Source of the DNA: Chloroflexota bacterium
Lineage (GTDB): Bacteria > Chloroflexota > Anaerolineae > Promineifilales > Promineifilaceae
Reading direction: 5' to 3'
Assembly: GCA_020628815.1 (NCBI GenBank)
Contig: JAHDEN010000003.1
Span: forward strand, 68,146-114,228
DNA length: 46,083 nt
The notes below the pieces were generated by a model, which ran no database searches, had not been told where the DNA came from, and saw only the letters and a program-made list of their open reading frames with translations. Position numbers and translations under genes: made by a program. Every line of letters begins with the position of its first letter. The stretch's first letter is position 1. This document shows positions 33,878 through 37,994 of the stretch, in pieces.

Positions 33878-35410
33878 ATGACCTCAAGACGAACCCGAAG
33901 TAGAACCCGTAGATCTGTAAACGACAAGCCCAAATGGTTGCAAAAACCGTTTCAACTTTTGCAAAACCCCATCGCCCCCACTGAATGGTGTACACCGACC
34001 CAACTAGACCAAATTCATGATGCAACCATGCGCATTTTAGAAAATGTTGGCATCGATTTTATGGACGATGAGGCGCTTGATGCATGGGAGAATGCTGGTG
34101 CCAAAGTAGATCGAAACTCTCAGCATGTCTGGATTGATCGTGGACTGCTGATGGATCTGGTTGAAAAAGCCCCATCCCAATTTACGTGGCACGCCCGTAA
34201 CAGCGACAATAACTTGCAGATCGGCAGCAACTATATAAATTTTTCTCCCAATTCTGGCATGCCGTATGTTAGCGATCTCGACGGCGGCCGGCGTGTTTCA
34301 ATGCTTCAAGATTTCGAAAACTTTATCAAAATGGCCCATGCGGTGCCGTACTTCCAGTTTGTGGGTGGCCCGCTGTGTGAGCCGCAAGATGTCCGTAATT
34401 CTCTGCGCCACTTGTATCGGGTGCGGATCATGGCGCACAACACCGACCGAGCGATTCGTGATACCGCGAGCGGCCGCATAATCGCGGCCGACACGGTTGA
34501 GATGATGAAGATTATCCATGGGGGGGAGGTTCCCGGCTGTGTCGTGGGTGGGGTAGTCAACGTTAACAGCCCGCTCCGTTTTGACAATCGGATGCTGGGT
34601 GGGCTGATCACCTATGCCAAACTGGGGCAAGCTTCGATCATCACCCCCTTTATCATGGCTGGGGCGATGAGCCCGGTTACGTTGGCATCCGCACTGGCTC
34701 AGCAAAATGCTGAGGCGTTGGCCGGAGTTGCCTTGGCCCAACTGATCAACCCCGGTGCGCCGGTGCTGTACGGGGGATTTACGCAAAACGTTGATATGCG
34801 TTCAGGTTCTCCCGCTTTTGGTGGCCCTGAAGGGGGATGGGCCTTAATTGTGGGAGCACAGCTGGCTCGCCGGTATGGGGTCCCGTATCGGGCCAGCGGC
34901 AGCCTGACCAATTCAAAAGTGGCTGACGCCCAAGCGGCTTATGAAACGATGTGGACGATGTGGCCGGCCGTGATGTCGCACACTAACATGGTTTTGCACG
35001 GCGTCGGTTGGTTAGAAGGGGGACTAGTTGCCAGCTACGAAAAGTTCATGATCGATGCTGAAAACTTGGCCATGTTCACCCATTTCTTGAACAACTTTGA
35101 AATTAGCGAGGAGGCGTTCGCCATCGACGCAATTGATGAGGTTGGTTCAGGCGGACACCATTTCGGCACCCAACATACTCAAGATCGGTACGAGACCGCT
35201 TTTTACGAACCGCTGGTCAGTGACCGATTGGGCTTTGACGCATGGGAAGCGGCCGGGGCAGAAGATTCGCTGGTGCGGGCCAACAAACTCTATAAACAGG
35301 TGCTTCGCTCGCACGAAAAGCCCCCCTTGGATCAAGCCATCGCTGAAGAATTAGATGCGTATATCGCCAAGCGTGAGGCCGAGTTAGAAGGTGTTGACCT
35401 ATTTAATTGA
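33878..35410 (+). CDS. MttB-superfamily methyltransferase, non-pyrrolysine
   Basis: A 510-residue protein of the trimethylamine methyltransferase (MttB) superfamily. Recognisable parts are IHDATMRILENVGIDFMDDEA (about 46-66), the SPNSGMPYVSDLDGGRR segment, SLRHLYRVRIMAHNTDR, and GGFTQNVDMRSGSPAFGGPE followed by the barrel end. The frame has no amber codon, so it belongs to the non-Pyl branch (MtgB-like and others), which demethylates quaternary amines such as glycine betaine or carnitine onto a corrinoid protein. No corrinoid protein, corrinoid:folate methyltransferase or RamA activator is nearby, so it is an orphan here. The basic N-terminus (TSRRTRSRTRRS) is an extra. Confidence 0.85.
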   Translation: MTSRRTRSRTRRSVNDKPKWLQKPFQLLQNPIAPTEWCTPTQLDQIHDATMRILENVGIDFMDDEALDAWENAGAKVDRNSQHVWIDRGLLMDLVEKAPSQFTWHARNSDNNLQIGSNYINFSPNSGMPYVSDLDGGRRVSMLQDFENFIKMAHAVPYFQFVGGPLCEPQDVRNSLRHLYRVRIMAHNTDRAIRDTASGRIIAADTVEMMKIIHGGEVPGCVVGGVVNVNSPLRFDNRMLGGLITYAKLGQASIITPFIMAGAMSPVTLASALAQQNAEALAGVALAQLINPGAPVLYGGFTQNVDMRSGSPAFGGPEGGWALIVGAQLARRYGVPYRASGSLTNSKVADAQAAYETMWTMWPAVMSHTNMVLHGVGWLEGGLVASYEKFMIDAENLAMFTHFLNNFEISEEAFAIDAIDEVGSGGHHFGTQHTQDRYETAFYEPLVSDRLGFDAWEAAGAEDSLVRANKLYKQVLRSHEKPPLDQAIAEELDAYIAKREAELEGVDLFN

Positions 35411-35494: not shown

Positions 35495-35562
35495 GTCATT
35501 CCTGCGGAGGCAGGAATCGAGCGTCAAACTTAGCACTGGATACCCACCTTCGTGGGTATGAC
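35495..35562. repeat. Two-hairpin REP-like element with GTCAT...ATGAC ends
   Basis: The first hairpin is ATTCCTGC (35498-35505) / GCAGGAAT (35510-35517). The second is ATACCCAC (35540-35547) / GTGGGTAT (35552-35559). The element begins GTCAT and ends ATGAC, so its ends are inverted repeats. Many bacterial genomes carry abundant intergenic elements of this design. The surrounding gap (35411-35745, 335 bases) has no gene; its 3' part has AGGAGA (35734-35739), the ribosome-binding site of the next gene. Confidence 0.75.
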
Positions 35563-35745
35563 GATCCGCAGGAAGCGTTGAGAACCTCTGGAACAGGGCG
35601 CTGAAGGCTGAAATTCTTGGATTTATGTAAACAAATCAAGCTGATTGGGTTGATCTACGCCTTTGCTTGAGCCTGAATTGTTGTAAACTCGTAGTGGTGA
35701 CGAGATGCCTACGGTTTGATTAGAATCAGTCACAGGAGATAAACC

Positions 35746-36447
35746 ATGATAGAAGAGCTGATGAAGGCGGTTTTAGAAGGAGCCCAACAGCAACAACAAA
35801 GGGGGCAACGGCAAACCCAGCAAGCCCCTGGCGGAGATATTTTAGGCGAAGTATTAAAAGGTGTTCTTGGAGGAGCTGCTCAACAGCAATCTCGTCGTGC
35901 ACCGGCACAGCCTGACATGAATAACTTAGGCGGTATCGCTGACATTTTGGGCGGCGTTTTAGGCGGCGGCACACGTGGTGCCAGCACGGGTAACCCGATT
36001 GCTGATATGGCCGCTAATGCTTTGGCCAAACGTTTAGGCATTTCGCCTCAAATTGCAGCGATGGTTGTTAGTTTTGCTATGGCGGCCTTAATGGGCAAAA
36101 AGCAGATGCAAAATAGCCAAAGTGGTGCAACAACCCGCCGTGGCCCATCTTCAAGAGGATCAAATACGACCCGTGGTGGCACATTTGGCGGTCTGGATCT
36201 AGATGATTTGCTAGACGGTGACTTTGCTTATGAAAGTGGTTTAGCGGCCCAGCTGGCTGAAAAAACCGGCCAATCAGAAGATGAATCAGCGTATCAACTG
36301 CAAGAAGCGGTGAGTATGTTGACCGGTGTAGGACAAAAGAAAACTCGTAAAACAGCAAAAGCTAAACCAAAACCAAAGCCAGCGGCTAAAGCTCGACCAA
36401 AATCTGGTGGACTAGACAGCCTGCTTGATAATTGGGAGGTAGATTAA
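35746..36447 (+). CDS. Low-complexity Gln/Gly-rich protein, DUF937-like helical core
   Basis: A 233-residue protein, not firmly assigned. The N-terminal third is rich in Gln and Gly with two related segments (GDILGEVLKGVLGG at 30-43 and ADILGGVLGGG at 65-75). A helical hydrophobic core NPIADMAANALAKRLGIS...MVVSFAMAALMG (83-117) is like DUF937/YidB-type proteins. A second helical part (about 160-195) precedes a Lys/Pro/Ala-rich linker. The motif GGLDLDDLLDGD (148-159) recurs as GGLDSLLDNW at 221-230 near the C-terminus. There is no signal peptide. The start is set by AGGAGA six bases upstream. It is two bases ahead of a protease gene, so it may be its partner or substrate. Confidence 0.75.
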   Translation: MIEELMKAVLEGAQQQQQRGQRQTQQAPGGDILGEVLKGVLGGAAQQQSRRAPAQPDMNNLGGIADILGGVLGGGTRGASTGNPIADMAANALAKRLGISPQIAAMVVSFAMAALMGKKQMQNSQSGATTRRGPSSRGSNTTRGGTFGGLDLDDLLDGDFAYESGLAAQLAEKTGQSEDESAYQLQEAVSMLTGVGQKKTRKTAKAKPKPKPAAKARPKSGGLDSLLDNWEVD

Positions 36448-36449
36448 TT

Positions 36450-37994
36450 ATGGCCCATGATCATGTAGATGGGGAAATTGACCGTCACGAGATTCGTGAC
36501 ACGATGCCAGCGGTTGTTCAAATTGTCGCATTGCAGAAAAAAATGTTTGGCAATTTATCGTCAGCATGGACCGGTTCAGGAACGATTGTAGACCCCCGTG
36601 GTTATATCCTGACCAATTGCCATGTGGCAAACCCACGTGCGATGGGTATGCGTTCTCCGGCCGCGAATCGATTGGGAATTGCGATTATGGATCGTTCCGA
36701 CGAGCCACCTGCCTTAACTTTTTATGCAGATATTGTGGCTCAGTCTCCTGAACTCGATTTGGCCGTGCTCAAAATCTCAGAGCGAATGGATGGCAAATCG
36801 ATTCGAGGATTAAAACTACCTTTTATCCCCTGTGGTGATTCAGATGAAATCGAATTGGGTGATGAACTTTCGATCTTTGGTTTTCCAGGGATTGGTGGCG
36901 AAACGATCACCTTTACCAGCGGAAACGTATCTGGATTTACGAAACAACGGGCTGTGCGTGCACGGCGGGCGTTTATTAAAACGGATGCGACGATTGCGGG
37001 CGGAAACTCTGGTGGAACTGCGGTGGATCACCAAGGTTTGCTTGTCGGGATTCCGACCCAAGCGGCGGCCGGTGAAGGGATTAATCCTGTGGATGCCCGG
37101 CCGGTGGTTGATACGAACCGTGACGGCCGTGTAGATACGCGTGACACACCGATGGCGATTGGTGGATTTATTAATGGTCTACGGCCGGTTAACTTGGCCA
37201 AACCGTTGATGATGGAAGCAGGTGTCAAAATTAAAGGGGTTGGTGTCGCCAAAACCCGTCAAGCAGCTAAACAGGCTGGCAATGCCGGTGGTTTGCGCGG
37301 GAGCGTACGTAAATCGGCCGGACGTGGCGCAACTGCGACGATGGGTGAAATGGTCTTTAGCCAAAGAGTAAATCGCTCTGGCTTACCGATCGGTGCCAAC
37401 GAGGTGTTTGCTTCACGCTCGAACCAAATCTTTGCGACGTTTGACTTTAATGACATGCGTAACGGGACCAAGTGGCAACAAACTTGGTCGCACAATGGCA
37501 AGATTATTAGCCAGCAAGAAGACAGTTGGAAAAACGGCCCACGCGGCCGGATGAGCTTGGCCATTGGTGGACAGCGTGGTGGTTTGCCAGATGGCACCTA
37601 TCATTTGGCTGTAAGTGCAAAAGGGCAAATACTGGCTGAGGGTGATTTCGCCATCGGCCGTCGTCAAGAAGATAATGACACCAAGCTTTCAGGCTCTGTG
37701 GTTGATTCGCGCACCGGCCGAGGCATTAGTGGTGCGTTGGTAATTGCGCTAAAACCGGGCGTAAGCGTTCAGCAATTTGTACGCAGCCAAAGCCCGGATA
37801 TGGCATACACATCTATCAAAACCAACCGTAGCGGTAAATTTACCTTTAAGAAGCAACTGCCACGTGGGCAGGCGTATGGCTTGGTTGCCATTGCGCGTGG
37901 CTACCAGGATATGGTGATTGAAGGTGGGTTGCGCTTAGCCGCGAACACGCCTGAAGTTGCAGAAATGCAGCCGATCCCTCTGCATAAAGGTTAA
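36450..37994 (+). CDS. Trypsin-like serine protease with EF-hand-like loop and C-terminal beta domains
   Basis: A 514-residue protein. A chymotrypsin-fold domain of the HtrA/S1C kind fills residues about 20-250, with a full triad: H58 (ILTNCHV), D103 (ELDLAVL) and S187 (AGGNSGG). An EF-hand/dockerin-like loop at 221-232 (DTNRDGRVDTRD) follows the nucleophile and may bind calcium. No PDZ domain is seen; instead there is a beta domain at about 315-405 and a carboxypeptidase-regulatory-like domain at about 412-510 (SGSVVDSRTGRGISGALV). No signal peptide or membrane segment is visible, so it may be cytoplasmic. An upstream TTG in frame is unlikely; ATG 36450 has GGGAGGT nine bases ahead. Confidence 0.87.
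   Translation: MAHDHVDGEIDRHEIRDTMPAVVQIVALQKKMFGNLSSAWTGSGTIVDPRGYILTNCHVANPRAMGMRSPAANRLGIAIMDRSDEPPALTFYADIVAQSPELDLAVLKISERMDGKSIRGLKLPFIPCGDSDEIELGDELSIFGFPGIGGETITFTSGNVSGFTKQRAVRARRAFIKTDATIAGGNSGGTAVDHQGLLVGIPTQAAAGEGINPVDARPVVDTNRDGRVDTRDTPMAIGGFINGLRPVNLAKPLMMEAGVKIKGVGVAKTRQAAKQAGNAGGLRGSVRKSAGRGATATMGEMVFSQRVNRSGLPIGANEVFASRSNQIFATFDFNDMRNGTKWQQTWSHNGKIISQQEDSWKNGPRGRMSLAIGGQRGGLPDGTYHLAVSAKGQILAEGDFAIGRRQEDNDTKLSGSVVDSRTGRGISGALVIALKPGVSVQQFVRSQSPDMAYTSIKTNRSGKFTFKKQLPRGQAYGLVAIARGYQDMVIEGGLRLAANTPEVAEMQPIPLHKG

Follow-up and report, generated by a model that had tools for sequence, protein, structure and literature searches.

Bacterial serine proteases of the HtrA type have mostly been studied in the cell envelope, and their control usually operates via PDZ domains. 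Members of the HtrA/Deg family (S1C; DegP, DegQ, DegS, HtrA1; TIGR02037) carry at least one PDZ domain and assemble into trimer-based oligomers, and the bacterial members typically possess an export signal or a membrane anchor. Small partner genes of trypsin-like peptidases have also been described: Trypco1 and Trypco2 co-occur with such a peptidase in the vWA-MoxR conflict systems (Kaur et al. 2020, PMC7159879), whose reported occurrence includes Chloroflexi and Planctomycetes (PMC7159879).

Here we analyse a two-gene locus which encodes an HtrA-type serine protease and, directly upstream, a partner protein that we call P1. It lies within a 46,083-nucleotide stretch, referred to as the window, of a Chloroflexota MAG whose nearest named relatives place it in the Anaerolineae. 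The comparisons described below lead us to favour, with moderate confidence, a model in which the two would form one co-transcribed cytosolic unit, with P1 acting as a dedicated scaffold, adaptor or activator of the protease.

Organisation of the gene pair

The P1 gene (35746..36447, 233 aa) and the protease gene (36450..37994, 514 aa) lie on the forward (+) strand, as do all of their features given below, and are separated by two bases, the P1 stop codon occupying 36445-36447 and the protease ATG starting at 36450. Shine-Dalgarno-like sequences are readable before both genes, AGGAG for P1 (ribosome-binding region 35730..35745, by direct reading of the sequence) and GGGAGG for the protease, confirming the close spacing and good ribosome-binding sites reported in the initial annotation. 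Scans for promoters and terminators at the locus gave no signal above that of shuffled sequence. P1 and the protease are probably co-transcribed. Further upstream lies a gene of the MTTB (trimethylamine methyltransferase) family (33878-35410; PF06253, E = 6.6e-184) without an in-frame stop, and the interval between it and P1 holds an inverted-repeat element (GTCATTCCTGCGGAGGCAGGAATC ... GGATACCCACCTTCGTGGGTATGACGATCC; 35495-35566) that is REP/MITE-type in look.

The protease comprises a Trypsin_2 catalytic domain (36573..37052, residues 42-201, E = 1.5e-25) with the triad His58, Asp103 and Ser187 (codons at 36621, 36756 and 37008), which is invariant. It is followed by an EF-hand-like loop, DTNRDGRVDTRD (37110..37145, residues 221-232), an unclassified beta domain (37353..37664, about residues 302-405) and a CarboxypepD_reg beta-sandwich (37686..37946, residues 413-499, E = 3.4e-8). 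Pfam scans of the protease and its orthologues detect no PDZ domain, and neither a signal peptide nor a clear transmembrane segment is found in the window protease. The initial reading of an intact triad lacking signal peptide, membrane segment and PDZ domain thus holds in the Pfam scan and N-terminal scoring, as does that of beta domains in the position usually taken by PDZ. The best sequence matches are HtrA1, HtrA and DegS, and a model of a Pirellulaceae orthologue, L060 (50% identical; mean pLDDT 80.7), shows an HtrA fold, a disordered linker and two beta domains, with HtrA1 (3tjn) as its best structural match (Z 23.5, rmsd 2.5 over 186 residues).

The first beta domain has no counterpart in Pfam and, by sequence, none among PDB chains. 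It is present in other proteins from the window's own bacterial family and also occurs without a protease domain, in proteins of ~270-320 aa at L003:1462-2370 (-) and at similar loci in G020, G022, G024, G029 and G050; the L003 protein has no Pfam match. In a genome of the window's genus (G002), the protease is split over two overlapping frames of 466 and 120 aa (L052:5989-7679), which reflects a frameshift or an assembly error. A role in defence was considered and rejected, as the neighbourhoods of the loci showed no recognisable defence genes. The PADLOC matches (RT-Protease_XI, LmuA, PDC-M35A) span the trypsin domain only. Matches to PHROGs are likewise restricted to the protease domain.

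P1 is a low-complexity protein with disordered linkers, and its composition (22 Gln, 33 Gly and no Cys in 233 residues) bears out the Gln/Gly-rich part first noted. The motif LDxLLD occurs twice, at residues 148-159 and 221-230, and none of 20,000 shuffles of P1 yields two, so that the repeat previously seen near the C terminus stands. A stronger repeat had been overlooked, a helical unit with the pattern [DEG]-L-L-x-x-V/I-L-G-G; three copies occur, at residues 4, 35 and 66 (maximum in 300 shuffles, 0), and as many as six in relatives. The copies read ELMKAVLEG (35755..35781, forming the N-terminal helix), EVLKGVLGG (35848..35874) and DILGGVLGG (35941..35967). They precede a core made up of a first helical pair (35992..36120, residues 83-125, block pLDDT about 63-91) and of an LDLDDLLDGD motif with a second helical pair (SGLAAQLAEKTGQ...; 36187..36327), the DUF937-like part. 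The protein also has a basic linker rich in Lys, Pro and Ala, and it ends in the tail GGLDSLLDNWEVD (36406..36444), which contains an LL[DE]xW motif, here LLDNW. There is a single borderline hydrophobic helix (residues 97-115, mean KD 1.76). The structure model of P1 is weak (pLDDT 65), and comparison with the PDB found no matching fold (the best results were E 1.3 with Foldseek and Z 5.4 with VIA, a value too low to be meaningful) and no match by sequence.

The DUF937-like core proposed initially is only partly upheld: DUF937 (PF06078) is matched by 5 of 28 P1 relatives (best E = 4.8e-5), but window P1 scores 13.4 bits (E = 0.11), under the Pfam gathering score of 25.4. The similarity resides in the second helical pair (SGLxxQLAxxTG...), which aligns weakly, whereas the N-terminal helical repeats, linker and LLDxW tail are additions of P1. 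The literature searched mentions DUF937 in two papers only and yielded nothing on its function.

Conservation of the pairing

A survey of 298 Anaerolineae genomes for P1 and for proteases of the window's clade found the protease in 14, P1 in 54 and the two together in 13 (Fisher p = 7e-10, without correction for phylogeny). In 12 of the 14 protease-bearing genomes the gene directly upstream of the protease is P1, and the order is never reversed. The loss of co-occurrence in related genomes, which the initial annotation had named as grounds for abandoning the pair, is therefore not what the survey shows. Among the distinct Chloroflexota loci fetched, the pair is adjacent in 16 of 20; in the remaining cases P1 is on a different contig (L057/G149), does not adjoin the protease in an incomplete locus (L068), or is not detected (L058 and G122). 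Since the proteases of L058 and G122 have neither a detectable P1 nor an N-terminal helix, P1 is not strictly required by the enzyme; both come from MAGs, that of G122 being 84% complete. Both genes are absent from G001, a genome of the same genus as the window.

The pair is scattered over several Chloroflexota families, and a comparison of 27 loci revealed no recurrent third gene beside it beyond the window's own genus. One could argue that the genes merely share a promoter, that the role of P1 is DUF937-like and unconnected with the protease, and that adjacency was inherited without functional coupling, as might be expected from the many genomes in which P1 occurs alone among varied neighbours (41 of the 298 Anaerolineae genomes have P1 without a clade protease). 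However, the pair persists over many families while every other neighbour changes, and neither the helix at the N terminus of the Pirellulaceae proteases nor the association of the P1 tail with pairing, both described below, sits well with mere promoter sharing, which we consider the least probable of the explanations weighed here. The stand-alone occurrences do indicate that P1 has a function of its own and, because these copies too show the core and repeats, that the P1 family is broader than the pairing. In genomes that contain P1 together with only an exported relative of the protease, the two never adjoin.

Loss of export features

In a tree of 48 catalytic domains, the window protease belongs to a clade of 26 rows (support 100/100) that is separate from, and placed among, exported relatives. 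A hydrophobic N terminus is absent from all 27 clade members scored, whose best 14-residue KD mean is at most 1.35, compared with at least 2.36 in the exported relatives where scored. The EF-hand-like loop DxNxDGxxDxxD is retained in nearly all proteases of the clade. A Cys pair flanks this loop in 13 of 15 exported relatives with a readable loop and N terminus, but in none of the window-clade members read; L084, a member of the exported group with an unreadable N terminus, also lacks it. The best explanation is that the enzyme is an HtrA-type protease that descended from exported relatives and lost both its signal peptide and the loop disulfide. The loss of both features fits a move into the cytosol, and we infer that the protease is cytosolic, although the missing Cys pair is no proof of this location since two exported sequences are also without it.

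Conversely, the protease may leave the cell by a non-classical route and act extracellularly, with P1 as its chaperone or export partner. Retention of the loop D221-D232 despite the low Ca2+ of the cytosol would favour such a route, as would a fold that otherwise resembles that of exported relatives and the borderline hydrophobic helix of P1. The absence of signal peptides and loop Cys pairs is, however, as expected of an intracellular enzyme, and no secretion genes were recognised near the loci, making export of this kind very unlikely in our judgement.

Pirellulaceae orthologues

Eight orthologues from Pirellulaceae share 48-52% identity with the window protease and form one group (support 100/98) placed inside the Chloroflexota clade (85/74). 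Their nesting suggests that Pirellulaceae acquired the protease by horizontal transfer. It is rare there: among 246 sampled Planctomycetota genomes, a match was found in the centre genome only. None of the Pirellulaceae proteases has a P1 gene upstream, and a search of seven of the genomes produced no convincing P1, two weak matches (E about 0.002-0.003) not being accepted as such.

Instead, the N terminus of each Pirellulaceae protease itself is a short P1-type helix (MGLEELFEAILGGAIEQQ..., MGLLDIFEAILQ...), the same type as the first helical repeat of window P1. A profile of the P1 N terminus scores 19.7 bits against L060 and 14.5 bits against L063 and L066, where the best of 177 non-P1 N termini, a null set from which two P1 proteins had been excluded, reaches 8.7 bits. 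The match is strong only in these three, as the other five N termini score 4.5-6.1 bits, among the top few of the null. In the L060 model the helix has low confidence (about 50), and the N-terminal helices of L060, L063 and L067 match no Pfam family at E<=1, including EAD, though EADs outside Pfam would escape this search. The simplest account is that the helix is a retained N-terminal piece of P1, but a short amphipathic helix could also have arisen by convergence. Two of the eight proteases have as a neighbour a small protein with a single hydrophobic segment (L060:2372-2863 (-) and L067:7489-7872 (+)); it contains three DWxM-type repeats (SDWEMSDV, GDWTMEDV and similar), which bear a faint likeness to the NWEVD tail of P1, and has no Pfam match.

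The P1 tail and the role of P1

The LL[DE]xW tail is found in 14 of 16 paired P1s (the exceptions being L059 and L077) versus 2 of 23 unpaired ones, and in one of these two (L097) the genome carries the protease elsewhere. Within genus g137, P1 of the protease-bearing G289 (locus L113) ends in LLDQWQ, whereas in the protease-less sister species G220 and G591 (L122 and L160) it ends in LLDQ, followed by TAG at the Trp codon. Because this Trp-to-stop change is probably one event, and the poorly resolved P1 tree provides two supported independent contrasts, the association between tail and pairing is suggestive rather than proven. A further P1 ORF, in G240 (L111:1504-2232 (-)), ends in ...VFNMLSPIPLQRE. 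Its last residues resemble the C terminus of clade proteases (IPLQRG/IPMQRG), as though P1 had been fused by a deletion to the terminal codons of a protease that is now missing; the survey detected no protease of the clade in G240.

A tail that follows the presence of the protease is what one would expect of a recognition tag, and a low-complexity protein with disordered linkers, encoded just upstream, could be a dedicated substrate, cut, for example, close to an LDxLLD motif or within a flexible linker, so that a self-assembling protein is released or destroyed. This reading leaves the P1-type helix on the Pirellulaceae protease unexplained, and no cleavage site can be identified in the P1 sequence. 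Because P1 is also widespread without the protease, a role as scaffold, adaptor or activator is preferred, and we regard P1 as an unlikely substrate. Of the two roles named side by side in the initial annotation, adaptor thus gains ground and pure substrate loses it, while its wider proposal, that of a dedicated protease-partner pair inside the cell, draws good support from the conserved adjacency, the loss of signal peptide and Cys pair, and the Pirellulaceae helix.

We tentatively propose the following mechanism for the scaffold, adaptor or activator role. The N-terminal helical repeats and helical core of P1 may serve for assembly or docking, and contact with the protease would fall to the C-terminal LLDxW tail. 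P1 would thereby concentrate the enzyme, position it or turn it on, instead of being only its prey. The Pirellulaceae would have kept a single copy of the helix, on the protease itself, and lost P1. The pairing, the loss of export features, the clade, the helix similarity and the tail association are direct readings of the sequences; direct binding, the direction of control and the substrates are presumed by the model. More speculatively, and improbably at this stage, P1 could be the multivalent scaffold of a cytosolic proteolytic body, in which its repeated helices self-associate and the LLDxW peptide acts as an allosteric activator of a PDZ-less HtrA protease, a design that Pirellulaceae would have simplified by putting one sticker helix on the enzyme. 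If true, proteases of a family best known from the cell envelope would have been rebuilt as an intracellular, scaffold-controlled machine.

Comparison with known systems

The exported trypsin-like proteases of Chloroflexota (L010-L020, L083-L093) have the same beta domains and share the domain order and, in most cases, the EF-hand-like loop with the window clade, at ~30-50% identity across matched parts. They differ in having a signal peptide, mostly a loop Cys pair, often more than one beta domain, and no adjoining P1. With the HtrA/Deg family the window protease shares the trypsin-like fold and the His-Asp-Ser triad, yet its score of 86 bits falls short of the family's cut-off, 416, and it carries a beta domain and CarboxypepD_reg instead of PDZ and lacks a signal peptide and membrane anchor.

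The helices of P1 recall the cargo-encapsulation peptides of microcompartments (PMC11157265), in which a protein terminus likewise bears a short amphipathic helix joined through a flexible linker. The likeness is by analogy only, P1 having several such helices, and inspection by eye recognised no bacterial microcompartment shell genes near the pair loci.

The nearest conceptual precedent is that of the Trypco-peptidase pairs, in which a trypsin-like peptidase gene is likewise joined by a small co-occurring partner gene. Pfam scans gave no Trypco match for P1 (E<=1) or about 28 relatives (E<=0.1), and no vWA, MoxR, VMAP, iSTAND or EAD genes were recognised by eye near the pair. A narrow literature search, covering few subscription papers, found no description of a pair of this make-up. 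The make-up is not wholly new, as the HtrA-type enzyme has exported relatives in the same phylum and partner genes of peptidases are known (PMC7159879). The pair is small and self-contained. A branch of these enzymes that is conserved, cytosolic and free of PDZ domains, and that has a partner family of its own, would reveal another route by which the HtrA fold is controlled, and would supply a first functional hypothesis for one branch of the DUF937-like proteins.
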